Positions 6,546-13,000 of a stretch of DNA of 64,000 nt are shown piece after piece. The position numbers and the translations under genes are program-made. The stretch is from Adhaeribacter swui. GTDB taxonomy: Bacteria; Bacteroidota; Bacteroidia; Cytophagales; Hymenobacteraceae. The stretch spans positions 2,982,585 to 3,046,584 of the forward strand of contig NZ_CP055156.1 in the NCBI RefSeq assembly GCF_014217805.1, read 5' to 3'. The notes beneath the pieces are model-generated. The model saw only the letters and a list, made by a program, of their open reading frames with translations, was not told the origin of the DNA and did not search any database. Position 1 is the stretch's first letter, and each line of letters starts with the position of its first letter.

Positions 6546-7949
6546 TTAAATATGAATCGGCCGGTTTTCTGTAGCTGCCAAGCAAGCTTCTTTCATGGCT
6601 TCGGTGTAAGTAGGGTGGGCGTGGCTCATGCGGGCTACATCTTCGGCCGAGGCCCGGAACTCCATTGCTACTACCGCTTCGGCAATTAAATCGGCAATCC
6701 GGGGGCCAATCATGTGAACGCCTAAAATTTCGTCGGTTTCTTTATCCGCCAGTACTTTCACAAAACCATCGGTATCCATAGAAGCCTTGGCGCGGCCAGA
6801 AGCTTTAAACGGAAACGAACCGGATTTGTAAGCGCGGCCTTGTTCTTTTAATTGTTCTTCGGTAAAGCCCACGCCAGCCACTTCCGGCCAGGTATACACT
6901 ACTCCCGGAATCAAATTATAGTTAATGTGCGGCTTCTGTCCTACGAGTTGTTCAGCTACCAATACGCCTTCTTCTTCGGCTTTATGGGCCAGCATGGCAC
7001 CCCGGATAACATCACCAATGGCGTAAATGCCCGGCACATTGGTTTGTAAATGATCATCCACGGCAATCATACCCCGTTCGCCCATCTGCACGCCGGCATT
7101 TTCCAGCCCTAATCCTTCGGTGTAAGGTTTGCGGCCAATCGATACCAAACAGTAATCGCCTTCAAACGTTACGGTTTCGCCTTTCGGATTTTGAGCTGTT
7201 ACAGTTACGCCCTCGCCGTTGTTGGTAGCGCCAGTTACTTTGTGCTGGAAGAAAAACTCGAAGCCTAAGGTTTTCTTTAAAATACGTTGTAGTTCTTTGC
7301 CCAACGATTTATCCATGGTCGGAATAATGCTGTCGAGGAACTCAATCACGGTGATTTTGGCGCCTAAGCGTGCGTAAACCGAACCTAGTTCCAGGCCAAT
7401 TACGCCACCACCAATAATTACCATGTGCTTGGGTACTTCTTTCAGTTCCAAGGCTTCGGTAGAAGTAATAATCCGCTGTTTATCTACCGGAATAAACGGT
7501 AAAACGGTTGGCTTAGAACCCGTAGCAATAATGGTATTGGTGGTTTCAATTTCCTGCGAGGTACCATCCTGCGCGGTAATTTTAATGCGGTTTTTATCTA
7601 CGAAAGAGCCCAAGCCGAAATATGTATCGATTTTGTTCTTTTTCATCAGGTAGGTAATGCCATCGTTGTTCGATTTTACTACTTCGCCTTTGCGCTTGAT
7701 CATTTGCTCCAGATTCACCTGCAGGTTATCCAGTTCAATGCCGTGCGTTTTAAACGTGTGCGCCGCATTGTGGTAATGCTCCGAAGAATCGAGTAAAGCT
7801 TTAGAAGGGATACAACCTACGTTTAAGCAAGTACCACCCAGTACGTTATATTTTTCAATGATCGCGGTTTTCAGGCCCACCTGGGCGCACCGGATGGCCG
7901 CTACGTAGCCGCCCGGACCAGAACCAATCACTACAACATCGTATTTCAT
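6546..7949 (-). CDS. lpdA: Dihydrolipoyl dehydrogenase (E3)
   Basis: A 467-residue flavoprotein that reoxidises dihydrolipoyl groups of 2-oxo-acid dehydrogenase complexes, passing electrons to NAD+. Visible features are the FAD-binding GSGPGG (residues 9-14), the redox disulfide GGTCLNVGCIPSK (Cys41/Cys46), a second nucleotide-binding GGGVIGLELG (about 180), the AIGDV FAD motif, and the C-terminal HAHPTYTEA with the catalytic His. Length is normal for the family. It is the last gene of the minus-strand sucA-odhB operon and therefore the likely E3 of 2-oxoglutarate dehydrogenase. A four-helix-bundle gene in a repeat element separates it from odhB. Confidence 0.97.
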   Translation of the reverse strand: MKYDVVVIGSGPGGYVAAIRCAQVGLKTAIIEKYNVLGGTCLNVGCIPSKALLDSSEHYHNAAHTFKTHGIELDNLQVNLEQMIKRKGEVVKSNNDGITYLMKKNKIDTYFGLGSFVDKNRIKITAQDGTSQEIETTNTIIATGSKPTVLPFIPVDKQRIITSTEALELKEVPKHMVIIGGGVIGLELGSVYARLGAKITVIEFLDSIIPTMDKSLGKELQRILKKTLGFEFFFQHKVTGATNNGEGVTVTAQNPKGETVTFEGDYCLVSIGRKPYTEGLGLENAGVQMGERGMIAVDDHLQTNVPGIYAIGDVIRGAMLAHKAEEEGVLVAEQLVGQKPHINYNLIPGVVYTWPEVAGVGFTEEQLKEQGRAYKSGSFPFKASGRAKASMDTDGFVKVLADKETDEILGVHMIGPRIADLIAEAVVAMEFRASAEDVARMSHAHPTYTEAMKEACLAATENRPIHI

Positions 7950-7956
7950 TGTATTT

Positions 7957-7991
7957 AATTAGAAATTATGAATTAGAAATTAGAAATTAAG
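7957..7991 (+). repeat. AATTAGA heptamer array, left arm
   Basis: Five consecutive 7-bp units starting at 7957, 7964, 7971, 7978 and 7985. Units 1, 3 and 4 are AATTAGA, unit 2 is AATTATG and unit 5 is AATTAAG. The array contains the stop codon of the four-helix-bundle gene (7987-7989). Confidence 0.9.
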
Positions 7992-8352
7992 CATTCGATT
8001 TCATGGATATTAGAATGCTACTTATAATTCGTCTGATTTCTATACCATCTTCATAAATGGATTCAAACGCATTTTCAGGCAGGTAGTGACTATCTTTTAA
8101 CAGGCGTAACCAGTAAGCCGTTTCTCTTGCCTCTTTTGCTGCAATATTTAATTTATGAACGAAATCAGCTTTAGAACTTGCAGCTATTGCTTCTTCAACA
8201 TTAGCCCCAATGGATGTTCCGCTACGTAACAATTGCTTAGAAAGAATAAACTCTTTCTGTTCCAAGGTTAAATACTTGTAAAGCTTAATAATCCGAAGGG
8301 CGAAGGCATAGCTCTTATCACAAATTACATTCTCCTTCTTGCCTTCCGCCAC
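7987..8352 (-). CDS. Four-helix-bundle protein (S23/IVS-type)
   Basis: A 121-residue protein of the family first seen as open reading frames in 23S rRNA intervening sequences (TIGR02436 type), related in fold to the Avd accessory protein of diversity-generating retroelements. Diagnostic stretches are FILSKQLLRSGTSIGANVEE, KADFVHKLNIAAKEARETAY and WLRLLKDS. Its molecular role is not settled; Avd-like proteins bind nucleic acid. The start is a GTG at 8352, since an in-frame TAG lies just upstream in the repeat arm. It is not in an rRNA gene here but sits between odhB and lpdA, in the same orientation, with its ends inside the heptamer arms. Confidence 0.88.
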   Translation of the reverse strand: MAEGKKENVICDKSYAFALRIIKLYKYLTLEQKEFILSKQLLRSGTSIGANVEEAIAASSKADFVHKLNIAAKEARETAYWLRLLKDSHYLPENAFESIYEDGIEIRRIISSILISMKSNA

Positions 8353-8356
8353 AATT

Positions 8357-8384
8357 TCTAATTTCTAATTTCTAATTCATAATT
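8357..8384 (-). repeat. AATTAGA heptamer array, right arm
   Basis: On the plus strand three TCTAATT units (8357, 8364, 8371) are followed by CATAATT (8378), which is the inverse complement of the left-arm order. It is adjacent to the GTG start of the four-helix-bundle gene. Confidence 0.9.
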
Positions 8385-8387
8385 TTA

Positions 8388-10115
8388 CTACACGCCTATT
8401 AATAACCGCATTGGGTCTTCCAGCAATTCTTTTACGCGTACCAGGAAGCTTACTGATTCACGACCGTCGATGATGCGGTGGTCGTACGATAAGGCGACGT
8501 ACATCATGGGGCGAATAACTACCTGGTCGTTGATGGCGATAGGGCGGTTAACGATGTTGTGCATACCCAGAATAGCCGATTGCGGCGCATTGATAATCGG
8601 AGTAGACATCATGGAACCGAACACGCCCCCGTTGGTAATTGTGAAGGTACCACCAGTCATTTCCTCAATCGAAATTTTATTTTCGCGGGCTTTCTTAGCT
8701 AAACGCACTACTTCTTTTTCAATGCCATCCAGCGATAAACTTTCGGCATTCCGAATTACCGGCACTACCAATCCTTTTGGCGCTGATACAGCTATAGATA
8801 TATCGCAGAAATCATTAAATACAATTTCGTTTTCTTCCAGTTGCGCGTTTACGGCAGGCCATTCCTGTAAGGCCACGGTACAAGCCTTCACGAAGAACGA
8901 CATAAAGCCCAGGTTTACTTCAAATTTCTCCTTGAACTTATCTTTGTACTTCGCCCGGATGTCCATAATCGGTTTCATGTCTACTTCGTTAAAAGTAGTA
9001 AGCATGGCCGTTTCATTTTTCACGGCTACCAAGCGGCGCGCTACCGTTTTCCGTAAGCTCGACATCCGTTCGCGGCGCTGGTTGCGGTTCCCCGAAGTGG
9101 CCGGAGCAGCAGCGGGTTGCGAAGTTGCTGGCTTAGAAGCTGGAGCCGCCGATTGTGCTGGTGCTGCCGGAGCAGCAGGTTTTGCCTGGGTGCCTATAGC
9201 ATCTTCTTTTGTTATGCGGCCATCCCGACCGGAGCCCACTACATCGGTAGCATTAATGCCTTTTTCAGCTAGTATTTTACCAGCAGCCGGCGAAGGAGTA
9301 CCACTCGCGTAGGTTTGAGCGCCACCACTGGTTGCGGCCGCTGCTTGTGCAGGCTGCGATGCTGTGGTTGGGGTATTGGCCGGAGCCGCAGGAGCGCCAG
9401 ATACCGCACCCGTAGTACTTTCGATGGTGCATATAACGGAACCTACTGGTACGGTTTCTCCTTCCGGAGCAATAATATGTAAGGTGCCGGCAACTTCGGC
9501 GGGTAATTCAAAAGTAGCTTTATCGGATTCCAGCTCGCAAATAACTTCGTCCAGGGCTACTACTTCGCCATCTTTTTTGAGCCATTTTGATATGGTTACT
9601 TCCGTAATGGATTCGCCAACTGTCGGAATTTTAATTTCTTTAGTGCTGCCAGCAGCGGTAGCGGCCGCATTACCTACCTGCGGATTATTATTCGTTGACA
9701 CTGGATTGTAAGAGCTTTCGGCAACTGGCGCTTTTTCGGCAGCCGGGGTACTCTGCGGATCCGTGATGGTTTTAGCCTCGGCAGGTTGCGGTTCCGTTAC
9801 GGCACCTCCATAACCAGAGCCACTGCCTTTACTTTCGGCATTTCCGCCACCGGCAGTAGTACCGGTTCCGTTGCTGCTACCGCCATCCTCAATGCTGCAG
9901 AGCACGGTACCAATTGGAATGGTTTCGCCTTCGGCTACTATAATGCGCAATATACCGGCTCCTTCGGCTGGGAGCTCAAAGGTAGCTTTATCCGACTCCA
10001 GTTCACAAATAACTTCGTCCATTGCTACCTGGTCGCCGTCTTTCTTAAGCCATTTGGCAATAGTTACTTCGGTTATCGACTCGCCCACCACGGGCACTTT
10101 TACTTCCAATGACAT
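8388..10115 (-). CDS. odhB: Dihydrolipoyllysine succinyltransferase (E2o), two lipoyl domains
   Basis: The 575-residue core subunit of 2-oxoglutarate dehydrogenase, which moves the succinyl group from lipoamide to CoA. Two lipoyl domains are visible, each with [14 protein letters not shown]; the lipoylated lysines are K43 and K199. Ala/Pro-rich linkers follow, then a peripheral-subunit-binding domain (about 270-310, [12 protein letters not shown] ... [10 protein letters not shown]). The catalytic domain ends with SYDHRIIDG (His546, Asp550). Typical E2o proteins have one lipoyl domain and about 400 residues, so the duplication accounts for the extra length. It lies between sucA and lpdA in one operon. 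Confidence 0.95.
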
Positions 10116-10127
10116 AGTTTTCTTTTA

Positions 10128-10229
10128 AATTAGAAATTAGAAATTAGAAATTATGAATGGATTATGAATTAGAAAAGTCATCCTATTTAAAGCAAACAAT
10201 TTCTAATTCATAATTTCTAATTCATAATT
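10128..10229. repeat. Gene-less heptamer palindrome in the sucA-odhB gap
   Basis: The whole 113-bp gap is occupied by the same heptamer family. On the left are AATTAGA at 10128, 10135, 10142 and 10167, and AATTATG at 10149. On the right are TCTAATT (10202, 10216) and CATAATT (10209, 10223). A 15-bp perfect stem (10161-10175 with 10200-10214) encloses a 24-nt loop with no coding capacity. It appears to be an empty or miniature relative of the element at 7957-8384. Confidence 0.85.
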
Positions 10230-13000
10230 TAAATCGCGAATGCTTTTTCGATGAGTTCGCGTTGTTCTTTGTTATGGATTTTAAGGTAACCGGTAGCCGG
10301 CGATGAACTGGCTTTTCGGGCAACCACGTCTTGTAAAATGTTTTTGAAACGTAAAGCCCGTAAAATATAAGCCCAGTAACCCATGTTAGATGGCTCTTCC
10401 TGCGCCCAGTATACCTTCGGATTATTGTATTTACTTAATTCTGCTTCCAGTTGCAGGTGCGGGAACGGATGCAATTGCTCCAAGCGAATGATAGCCACAT
10501 CTTTCCGGTTGTTTTTCTGCTGTTCATCAAATAAATCGTAATAAAATTTACCGGAACATAGAATTACTTTAGTTACCGCACTGGCTTCGGCATACGAATC
10601 GCCAATTACTTCCCGGAAAGAGCCGGAAGTAAACTCAGCTATCGGTGAAACTGCTAACGGATGCCGCAGCATTGACTTTGGCGACATGTTTACTAGCGGT
10701 TTCCGGAACGGTAATGCCAATTGGCGGCGCAACACGTGGAAGAAGTTAGCCGGGAAAGTAATATTGGTTACAAAAATATTGTATTCGGCGGCTAGCTGTA
10801 AAAACCTTTCCGGACGGGCATTGGAGTGCTCCGGCCCCTGGCCTTCGTAACCGTGCGGTAATAACATCACTACGCCGTTCATCCGTTGCCATTTCGACTC
10901 GGAAGGCGTAATAAACTGATCGATCATTACCTGGGCACCATTGGCAAAATCACCGAACTGCGCTTCCCAAATAGCTAAAGCATTGGGGTTAGCCATGGCG
11001 TAGCCAAATTCAAAACCTAAAGCACCATATTCCGAAAGCAAGGAGTTGTAAATACGCATTTTCTCCTGGCTTTCGTCTATGTAATTTAAGCTGTTATAGC
11101 CCTGGTTGGTTTCGGCGTCGTGGAGAACGGCATGACGGTGCGAGAATGTCCCGCGCTGCACATCTTGTCCGCCTAAACGCACAATTTTATTCTCGAGTAA
11201 CAACGAGCCGTAGGCCAGTAATTCACCCGCGGCCCAGTTTAAGGTTTTGGTATTGAAAAACATGTCCTGCCGTTCTTTTAGCAGTTTTTCAATTTGCTTT
11301 AAAGGCTTAAATCCTTCCGGAATGGTAGAAAGTGCTTTACCTACTTTTTCTACTACTTCCTGGCTAATGCTGGTATCCGGCGATTTATCAAAATCTTCGG
11401 GCTTAGAGCGGCGTAATACTTGCCATTCTTTTTCCAGCACCTGGTAGTTGTAAGGCAAAGGCTTTTGTTTTACTAAATTCAGACGGTCTTGCAGCAAATC
11501 ACGGAACTCTTTGTCCATGTTTTCGGCCAGTTGCGCGTCTACTTCGCCCCGGTTAATTAATACTTTATTATAAATTTCCCGTGGATTCGGGTGTTTTGAA
11601 ATCAGATTATATAATTGCGGCTGCGTAAATTTAGGCTCATCGCTTTCGTTGTGGCCATGACGACGGTAGCAAACCATATCCACGAAAATATCGGCCTGGA
11701 AACGCTGGCGGTATTCGGTAGCCACCTGTACGGCGTAAACTACCGCTTCCGGATCGTCGCCGTTTACGTGCAACACGGGCGCATCAATAATTTTAGCTAC
11801 ATCGGTAGAGTAAATGGAAGAGCGGGCATCCTCAAAATCAGTAGTAAAACCAACCTGATTGTTGATTACAAAGTGAATGGTACCACCGGTTTTATAACCT
11901 TCCAGTTGCGACATCTGCGTTACTTCGTACACAATGCCTTGGCCCGCCAGAGCGGCATCGCCGTGAATTAGAATCGGGAGGATTTTTTTGTAATCGTTCT
12001 TGTACATGCTATCAATTTTAGCCCGTACAAAACCTTCTACTACCGGGTTAACGGCCTCTAAGTGCGAGGGGTTAGGCGCCAGTTTTAAATTTACTTTTTT
12101 ACCTGAAGCTGTAGTTACCTCGCTGGAATAACCCATGTGGTATTTTACGTCGCCATCGCCCATGGTTAAATCGGGTACAGCCGTTCCTTCAAACTCGCTG
12201 AAGATTTGTTCGTAGGTTTTTCCCAGAGTGTTTGCCAGCACGTTTAAACGACCGCGGTGGGCCATCCCGATCATTACTTCTTCTACTCCCAGTTCCGAAG
12301 CTTTGTCGATAATAGCATCCAGGGCCGGAATGGTAGTTTCGCCGCCTTCCAGCGAGAAACGTTTTTGGCCTAAAAATTTGGTATGTAAGAAGTTTTCAAA
12401 AACAACGGCTTCGTTTAATTTTTTCAGAATCCGCTTTTTGTATTCCAGAGGTGGGTTAAAATTTAAAAATTCTTTCTCGATTTTATCCCGGAACCAATCC
12501 AGTACTTCCGGATCGCGGATGTACATGTATTCAAAACCAATAGTTTCAGTATAAATTTTATTAAGCGCCGTAATAATGTCGCGCAGCGAAGAAGCACCAA
12601 TGCCAATAGCTTCGCCGGCTTGGAAAACAATATCCAGATCGGCGTCGGATAAACCAAAATCTTTTAAATCCAAAAGCGCTTTCCGGTCTTTGCGCGGACG
12701 TACCGGGTTTGTTTTAGAAAGTAAGTGGGCCCGGCTGCGGTAAGCCTGAATCAGGTTCCGTACTTTTAATTCCCGGTCAATGTCGGAAGTAGAAGTAGCG
12801 GGTGCAGAAGCGGTTTTACTGGAACCATTAGCCGAAGGGGCGGAGTGTCCATTTTCTGACGTATATTTAACGGAGAAATCGTACCCCTCAAAAAACTTAC
12901 GCCAGCCAAAATCTACAGATTCTGGGTCTTGTTGATAGGCTTTATACAGCTCATCAATGTACGATGCGTCTGCATTAGCAATATACGAGAAACTACTCAT
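10229..13000 (-). CDS. sucA: 2-oxoglutarate dehydrogenase E1 component
   Basis: A 923-residue thiamine-diphosphate enzyme that decarboxylates 2-oxoglutarate and succinylates the E2 lipoyl group in the TCA cycle. The N-terminal E1o signature (YIDELYKAYQQDPESVDFGW) is present. So are the substrate and cofactor region GMAHRGRLNVLANTLGK, the diphosphate region HGDAALAGQG, and the C-terminal transketolase-like part (LPHGYEGQGPEHSNARPERF). Length is normal. It heads the sucA-odhB-lpdA operon. The last codons run directly into the heptamer repeat region at 10128-10229. Confidence 0.96.
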   Translation of the reverse strand: MSSFSYIANADASYIDELYKAYQQDPESVDFGWRKFFEGYDFSVKYTSENGHSAPSANGSSKTASAPATSTSDIDRELKVRNLIQAYRSRAHLLSKTNPVRPRKDRKALLDLKDFGLSDADLDIVFQAGEAIGIGASSLRDIITALNKIYTETIGFEYMYIRDPEVLDWFRDKIEKEFLNFNPPLEYKKRILKKLNEAVVFENFLHTKFLGQKRFSLEGGETTIPALDAIIDKASELGVEEVMIGMAHRGRLNVLANTLGKTYEQIFSEFEGTAVPDLTMGDGDVKYHMGYSSEVTTASGKKVNLKLAPNPSHLEAVNPVVEGFVRAKIDSMYKNDYKKILPILIHGDAALAGQGIVYEVTQMSQLEGYKTGGTIHFVINNQVGFTTDFEDARSSIYSTDVAKIIDAPVLHVNGDDPEAVVYAVQVATEYRQRFQADIFVDMVCYRRHGHNESDEPKFTQPQLYNLISKHPNPREIYNKVLINRGEVDAQLAENMDKEFRDLLQDRLNLVKQKPLPYNYQVLEKEWQVLRRSKPEDFDKSPDTSISQEVVEKVGKALSTIPEGFKPLKQIEKLLKERQDMFFNTKTLNWAAGELLAYGSLLLENKIVRLGGQDVQRGTFSHRHAVLHDAETNQGYNSLNYIDESQEKMRIYNSLLSEYGALGFEFGYAMANPNALAIWEAQFGDFANGAQVMIDQFITPSESKWQRMNGVVMLLPHGYEGQGPEHSNARPERFLQLAAEYNIFVTNITFPANFFHVLRRQLALPFRKPLVNMSPKSMLRHPLAVSPIAEFTSGSFREVIGDSYAEASAVTKVILCSGKFYYDLFDEQQKNNRKDVAIIRLEQLHPFPHLQLEAELSKYNNPKVYWAQEEPSNMGYWAYILRALRFKNILQDVVARKASSSPATGYLKIHNKEQRELIEKAFAI

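Follow-up and report, generated by a model that had tools for sequence, protein, structure and literature searches.

The 2-oxoglutarate dehydrogenase operon of Adhaeribacter swui carries, between odhB and lpdA, a small gene of the S23 (PF05635) type, whose two sides are inverted arrays of a 7-bp word. The question raised by this locus is whether the gene and its arms form a single genetic element and, if so, of what kind. To our knowledge, no function has been assigned to S23 proteins, structures of which have been available since 2006, and we know of no catalytic domain in this family. A first-pass annotation of the window (the whole stretch of 64,000 nucleotides analysed here), made from the letters alone, had proposed a small element whose protein recognizes the arms. 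Our own reading, to which we assign a probability of about 0.7, is that arm, S23 gene and arm (~430 bp in total) constitute one REP/RAYT-like element, and that this element belongs to a widespread class that includes the S23-bearing intervening sequences (IVS) of 23S rRNA.

Table 1. Features at and around the S23 locus of the window
Feature	Coordinates	Strand	Description
lpdA-like dihydrolipoamide dehydrogenase (E3)	6546..7949	-	downstream of the S23 gene
Left arm	7957..7998	+	inward-reading heptamers AATTAGA-AATTATG-AATTAGA-AATTAGA-AATTA(AG); contains the S23 stop codon (7987-7989)
S23 / 23S rRNA-IVP four-helix-bundle gene	7987..8352	-	121 aa, GTG start
Right arm	8353..8385	-	inverted heptamers AATTTCT AATTTCT AATTTCT AATTCAT AATT; touches the GTG start
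odhB, 2-oxoglutarate dehydrogenase E2	8388..10115	-	upstream of the S23 gene
Gene-less inverted AATTAGA/AATTATG pair	10128..10229	.	arrays 10128-10155 and 10202-10229, in the odhA-odhB gap
odhA, 2-oxoglutarate dehydrogenase E1	10229..13000	-	first gene of the operon

The assignment of the protein is straightforward. It matches PF05635 (4.5e-29, 101.2 bits against a cut-off of 33.8) and TIGR02436 (3.6e-32, 110.8 bits against a cut-off of 24), and the AlphaFold2 model is a confident four-helix bundle with a pLDDT of 94.3. The closest solved structures are 2RLD (57% identity, TM 0.91) and 2GSC, followed by the accessory protein Avd of diversity-generating retroelements (DGR), which has the same fold (chains 8UBE, TM 0.70, and 4DWL, TM 0.63), as had been noticed in the first-pass annotation. 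The dedicated Avd models place the window protein outside that family: PF22296 (bAvd) scores 20.3 against a cut-off of 40 and NF033474 gives no match. A profile search found no HUH/Y1 tyrosine transposase in the protein, the only matches being PF05635 and the sub-threshold bAvd. In the broad alignment A1, which covers all S23 subfamilies sampled, Q40, R43, N51, E54 and E77 are invariant and S47 nearly so, a degree of polar conservation beyond the needs of a plain helical bundle.

The arms fit the gene closely. Segments 7957-7988 and 8353-8384 (32 nt) are 88% complementary and enclose a perfect inverted repeat, which had been described as 25 bp long and in fact extends over 27 nt (7963-7989 with 8359-8385). 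RNA folding predicts that the two arms pair as a stem enclosing the S23 open reading frame, and comparison of the reading frame with the arm coordinates bears out the earlier remark that the gene ends within one arm and starts against the other. The same operon harbors a second inverted pair of the same words that contains no gene and had been overlooked in the first pass; its predicted RNA fold is strong (z = -5.6), and it is a candidate non-autonomous derivative of the element. An Rfam search of positions 7700-10400 yielded no match, so that the window element, located between two protein-coding genes, sits outside 23S rRNA, and a search of PHROGs yielded none either.

Inverted arrays of short words around S23 genes are by no means a peculiarity of this operon. 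The source genome (6.2 Mb, three contigs) contains three PF05635 genes, and the other two lie within inverted arrays of different heptamers, GTATCAG-like and GTTGCAG-like; exact AATTAGA arms on every S23 gene are thereby ruled out. When the flanks of 30 PF05635 loci of the genus are summed, base matches peak at a lag of 7, with harmonics at 14 and 21. The strongest period of the best flanking inverted repeat is 7 or 8 in 170 of the 186 Bacteroidota loci sampled and in 97/106 of the family and phylum loci, while the 80 loci from named GTDB genomes give a best period of 7 in 60 cases and of 8 in 13. Of the 106 family and phylum loci, 85 attain an inverted-repeat score of 12 or more (period 7 in 74, period 8 in 10) and 75 a score of at least 14, as compared to 11 of 250 control ORFs of the source genome, among which heptamer arrays account for three, two of these flanking PF05635 genes; in G002, a congener without PF05635, none of 250 control ORFs reaches this score. 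It must be noted that the locus sample is biased towards high-scoring PF05635 matches, and that the scan of genome contigs relied on the narrower alignment A2, the broad A1 being too poorly conserved. Since high inverted-repeat scores are common at PF05635 loci and rare at control ORFs, the layout seen in the window is not due to chance. The expectation that four-helix-bundle genes elsewhere would lie between inverted arrays was thus borne out in the genome, the family and the phylum, but the AATTAGA word is usually not theirs.

The arms share further features across loci. The heptamers combine about five fixed positions with two adjacent variable ones, G exceeds C in the inward-reading arm in 78 of 91 loci, and left and right arms agree unit by unit in 49/55 loci (p 1.6e-9), beyond the expectation from a shared word; some process may rewrite both arms together. 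S23 elements nearly always lie in sense orientation between the cistrons of an operon: both neighbors are co-directional with the S23 gene in 159 of 174 scorable loci and both are opposite in only five. Clear arms are missing from some PF05635 loci (L136, L205 and L210). In an uncultured Mucilaginibacter (L258), the arm word TCTCACA is the reverse complement of those in its closest relatives (ATATGAGA type), as though the polarity of the arms had flipped. In the source genome itself, a non-S23 gene, the N-terminus of which resembles by eye an LptF/LptG-type permease, lies inside inverted GTTGCAG arrays (L170:12958-14034), perhaps as a result of two separate gene-less arrays.

One could argue that such heptamers are simple-sequence repeats born by slippage, the inverted copies being kept as hairpins or terminators and the S23 genes being there by chance. 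Such arrays have been reported from many bacteria, slippage has been proposed as their origin (Mrazek 2007, as cited in PMC4679880 and PMC4692102), and S23 genes are fewer than gene-less arrays. Yet the enrichment of arrays at S23 genes relative to other genes is both strong and specific, and we regard this explanation as very improbable.

A more informative test is provided by the relationship between arms and proteins. Of the 12 period-8 loci in a tree of 101 proteins, nine fall into one clade (support 100/99) that spans three host families; nine of its ten rows have period 8, the remaining row being unclear, and elsewhere in the sample these host families contribute period-7 loci or are found in other clades. 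The period label changes five times on the tree, against a mean of 11.6 for shuffled labels, and none of 500 shuffles gave so low a number. The words behave in the same way: their distance drops from ~3.4 for random pairs to 0.60 once protein identity exceeds 80% (Mantel r -0.38, 0/999), words of different S23 genes within one genome are no closer than those between genomes, and the relation persists when the comparison is restricted to loci without a common flanking gene family (r -0.22, 0/999). Hence, both the word, be it a heptamer or an octamer, and its period track the lineage of the protein and not the host genome or the site, which also speaks against repeats generated by slippage. Because period and word follow the protein phylogeny, unrelated loci included, these data indirectly support the view that the S23 protein may recognize its own arms. 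On the other hand, joint inheritance or joint travel of gene and arms in the absence of binding would also yield at least part of the word-protein correlation.

That gene and arms do form one unit is evident from plasmids. Plasmids searched with tblastn yielded S23 genes mostly from cyanobacteria, and most of the ten plasmid genes examined are flanked by inverted heptamers, e.g. TAGGGAG, CAGGGAA, ACAGGTG or AGGGTGT, at sites that include nrdB-nrdA, cas6-cas4 and cas10-cmr3 (the last with a period of 8 bp). Related plasmids without the insert supply empty sites at several cyanobacterial plasmid junctions. In the alignments the added unit is arm-gene-arm, which lies at a stop/start junction or no more than a few bases away from it and sometimes replaces the spacer; the three parts are therefore present or missing together at gene junctions, in line with the earlier view of gene and arms as one unit. 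Three plasmids of Nostoc sp. ATCC 53789 (L383, L347 and L382) have one gene cluster in common; one of them contains an S23 element, another contains a different S23 element at the neighboring junction, and the third is free of both. The insert in L383 has TTCTA on each side, and no consistent target-site duplication was seen in the aligned plasmid junctions. The comparison of the Anabaena cas6-cas4 site with Dolichospermum gave no clean junction, the spacer being wholly different.

Three of the plasmid elements (L342, L341 and L346) lie within CRISPR-Cas operons, twice at cas6-cas4 of type I-D and once at cas10-cmr3 of type III-B. One of them, at cas6-cas4 of a Pseudanabaena galeata plasmid (L341), has long, near-perfect arrays of AAAAGCT and AAAAGCC that run in the same direction rather than inverted.

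The same anatomy is found within rRNA. An unannotated insert on plasmid AZO_p2 of Azospirillum lipoferum (L371:1438-1906), the host gene of which is 23S rRNA (RF02541, 2464 bits), carries an S23 ORF flanked by inverted heptamer arrays; it is a classical intervening sequence with the anatomy of the window element, and the class of S23 elements is wider than rRNA intervening sequences. In general, the IVS of Coxiella burnetii, Leptospira and Azospirillum resemble the window element in having an S23/PF05635 ORF within terminal inverted repeats that form a long stem, and differ from it in their location, being in rRNA, whereas the window element lies between protein-coding cistrons of a genome rich in gene-less arrays. 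The Coxiella IVS has two to three copies of GACAGAT ahead of the S23 start, their number depending on the strain, as well as a terminal 28-bp stem, and is excised by RNase III (PMC4990558).

This precedent invites an explanation at the level of RNA only, according to which the arms are a stem cut by RNase III that renders the insert harmless or sets mRNA stability; the arms would not be read by the protein, and the correlation with the protein would stem from co-inheritance or co-movement. The sense orientation of the elements, the strong predicted stem and the Azospirillum insert are all consistent with this scenario, and the authors of the Coxiella study thought that the S23 protein is not produced there (PMC4990558). 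Nevertheless, a stem for RNase III requires neither a strict unit of 7 or 8 bp nor the retention of a particular word, the period follows a protein clade over unrelated loci, and the protein is under purifying selection (see below), which makes us consider a purely RNA-based element improbable.

The odhB-lpdA junction itself has a long history. An AATTAGA-armed S23 gene occupies it not only in G000 and the congener G005 but also in four genomes of other genera (G072, G048, G098 and G012), where the proteins are 83-85% identical and the AATTAGA word is retained. In comparisons with other genera the S23 gene is saturated at silent sites (pS ~0.74-0.87), as are lpdA and odhB, from which we infer old vertical inheritance with the word retained; the dN/dS ratio between G000 and G005 is ~0.11 (0.062/0.577). 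The element at this junction appears to be an old resident, passed on for the most part vertically and kept under purifying selection, and the S23 gene and its arm word can stay together over long times. The equal saturation in the S23 gene, lpdA and odhB rules out a recent horizontal gain. Thus, the reading as a small element stands, as supported by its behavior as a unit and by the empty sites, but recent insertion at odhB-lpdA does not. The retention of the arms despite saturated silent sites is again difficult to reconcile with slippage.

The junction has not been static, either. The empty site anticipated in close relatives exists in four of the seven congeners (G001, G002, G006 and G007), and in two others a different element takes the place of the AATTAGA one: G003 has an S23 gene of only 61% identity with AGTTAAG arms, between flanks that are 90-98% identical, and G004 has a frameshifted S23 copy with AGTTATA arms. 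The gene-less hairpin between odhA and odhB is made of AATTAGA in G000 and of AGTTATG/AGTTAAA in G003, G004 and G005, so that the word at a given site is replaceable; in G059 an S23 gene is located at this same junction.

Gene-less inverted arrays are dispersed through the genome. In 800 kb of the 6.2 Mb source genome there are 27 arrays at lag 7, 21 at lag 14 and 11 at lag 8, and 0-5 at other lags, while 400 kb of G002, a genome devoid of PF05635 genes, contain none at lags 7, 8 or 14. In the family sample, genomes without S23 genes have three arrays in 246 kb versus 16 in 400 kb for genomes with at least four such genes. Two of those three arrays form an inverted heptamer pair in G063 (L307:9502-9608), a genome without a detected PF05635 gene; strict co-occurrence of arrays and S23 genes at the genome level is therefore rejected, as it holds for G002 and is a mere tendency in the family. 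The arrays are not ephemeral, since five of the gene-less AATTAGA sites of G000 that were compared have an AATTAGA array at the orthologous place in G005.

Such stability would also be expected if the S23 protein were a resident regulator of transcription or of a post-transcriptional step, and the arrays its binding sites on its own message and on target operons, i.e. a regulon and not a mobile element. The low dN/dS ratio and the long vertical retention at odhB-lpdA, the orthologous gene-less sites, the contact of the arrays with start and stop codons, and the translational control proposed for TAACTGA arrays (MacGregor 2015, PMC4679880) all agree with this possibility. It accommodates less easily the occurrence in one genome of several words, each with only few genes, the pseudogene copies of S23 (L039, L040, L045 and L060), the clean presence or absence at junctions, partly on plasmids of one strain, and the substitution of another S23 lineage with another word in G003 and G004. 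We therefore consider a host regulator unlikely, albeit less so than an element acting through RNA alone.

The reading we prefer, a REP/RAYT-like element, draws on a well-known precedent. A RAYT gene is flanked by its own inverted repeat, gene-less copies of this repeat are dispersed in the genome, and the repeat sequence tracks the protein lineage. The S23 elements resemble this system in all three respects, and may follow the same logic of a protein paired with its own dispersed repeats. The protein, on the other hand, is unrelated: RAYT is an HUH/Y1 transposase, while S23 is a four-helix bundle for which no active site is known, and the S23 repeats are tandem arrays of 7-/8-bp units rather than single palindromes.

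By this analogy, the S23 protein (solved relatives such as 2GSC from Xanthomonas are homopentamers; PMC4990558) would recognize the repeated word of its own arms, be it as an RNA or single-stranded DNA hairpin or as duplex DNA. It would assist the copying of the element, or its insertion, at junctions between genes, probably with the aid of host enzymes, and may act likewise in trans on gene-less arrays. In the transcript the arms would pair into a stem that RNase III could cut, and therefore an insert between two cistrons would do little harm. Several observations count against this proposal: the vertical inheritance and low dN/dS at odhB-lpdA are those of a useful gene, S23 has no known catalytic domain, target-site duplications are not consistent, some loci are armless, the arrays of the Pseudanabaena plasmid are not inverted, and the L307 pair exists without a detected S23 gene.

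The arrays themselves have been described before, without a cognate protein. They include the cyanobacterial STRR, GGGGA(C/T)T of Nostoc, GGGAATC of Xanthomonas and TAACTGA of Beggiatoaceae and Bacteroidetes, all of which are, like the arms in the window, tandem intergenic units of 7 bp; the S23 genes of cyanobacteria are flanked by arrays of this kind. The GGGAATC heptamers often form convergent pairs, 70 of them in Xcc, in a study that also covers the Nostoc heptamers (PMC4692102), and the repeats of Beggiatoaceae and some Bacteroidetes have been treated separately (PMC4679880); S23 genes go unmentioned in both papers. The first-pass annotation knew of no description of the pairing, and we located none in the open-access literature, except that heptamers beside the S23 gene of Coxiella had already been printed in a figure, where the wider link was not drawn (PMC4990558).

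The pairing of S23 genes with heptamers joins three puzzles: the function of S23 proteins, the heptamer repeats that lack a protein, and the origin and spread of the IVS of 23S rRNA. It is tempting to go further and to regard S23 proteins as the word-readers of tiny selfish elements that cross phyla, each lineage recognizing and rewriting its own 7-/8-bp word; this would explain the hairpins of Bacteroidota, the STRR-like repeats and the IVS by a mode of movement unlike that of any known transposase, but we hold this broader view only tentatively, at somewhat less than even odds. If the S23 pentamer does bind its own word, these elements would rank with the smallest known protein-coding elements that insert between genes, and one could predict the sequence of a repeat from the S23 protein.
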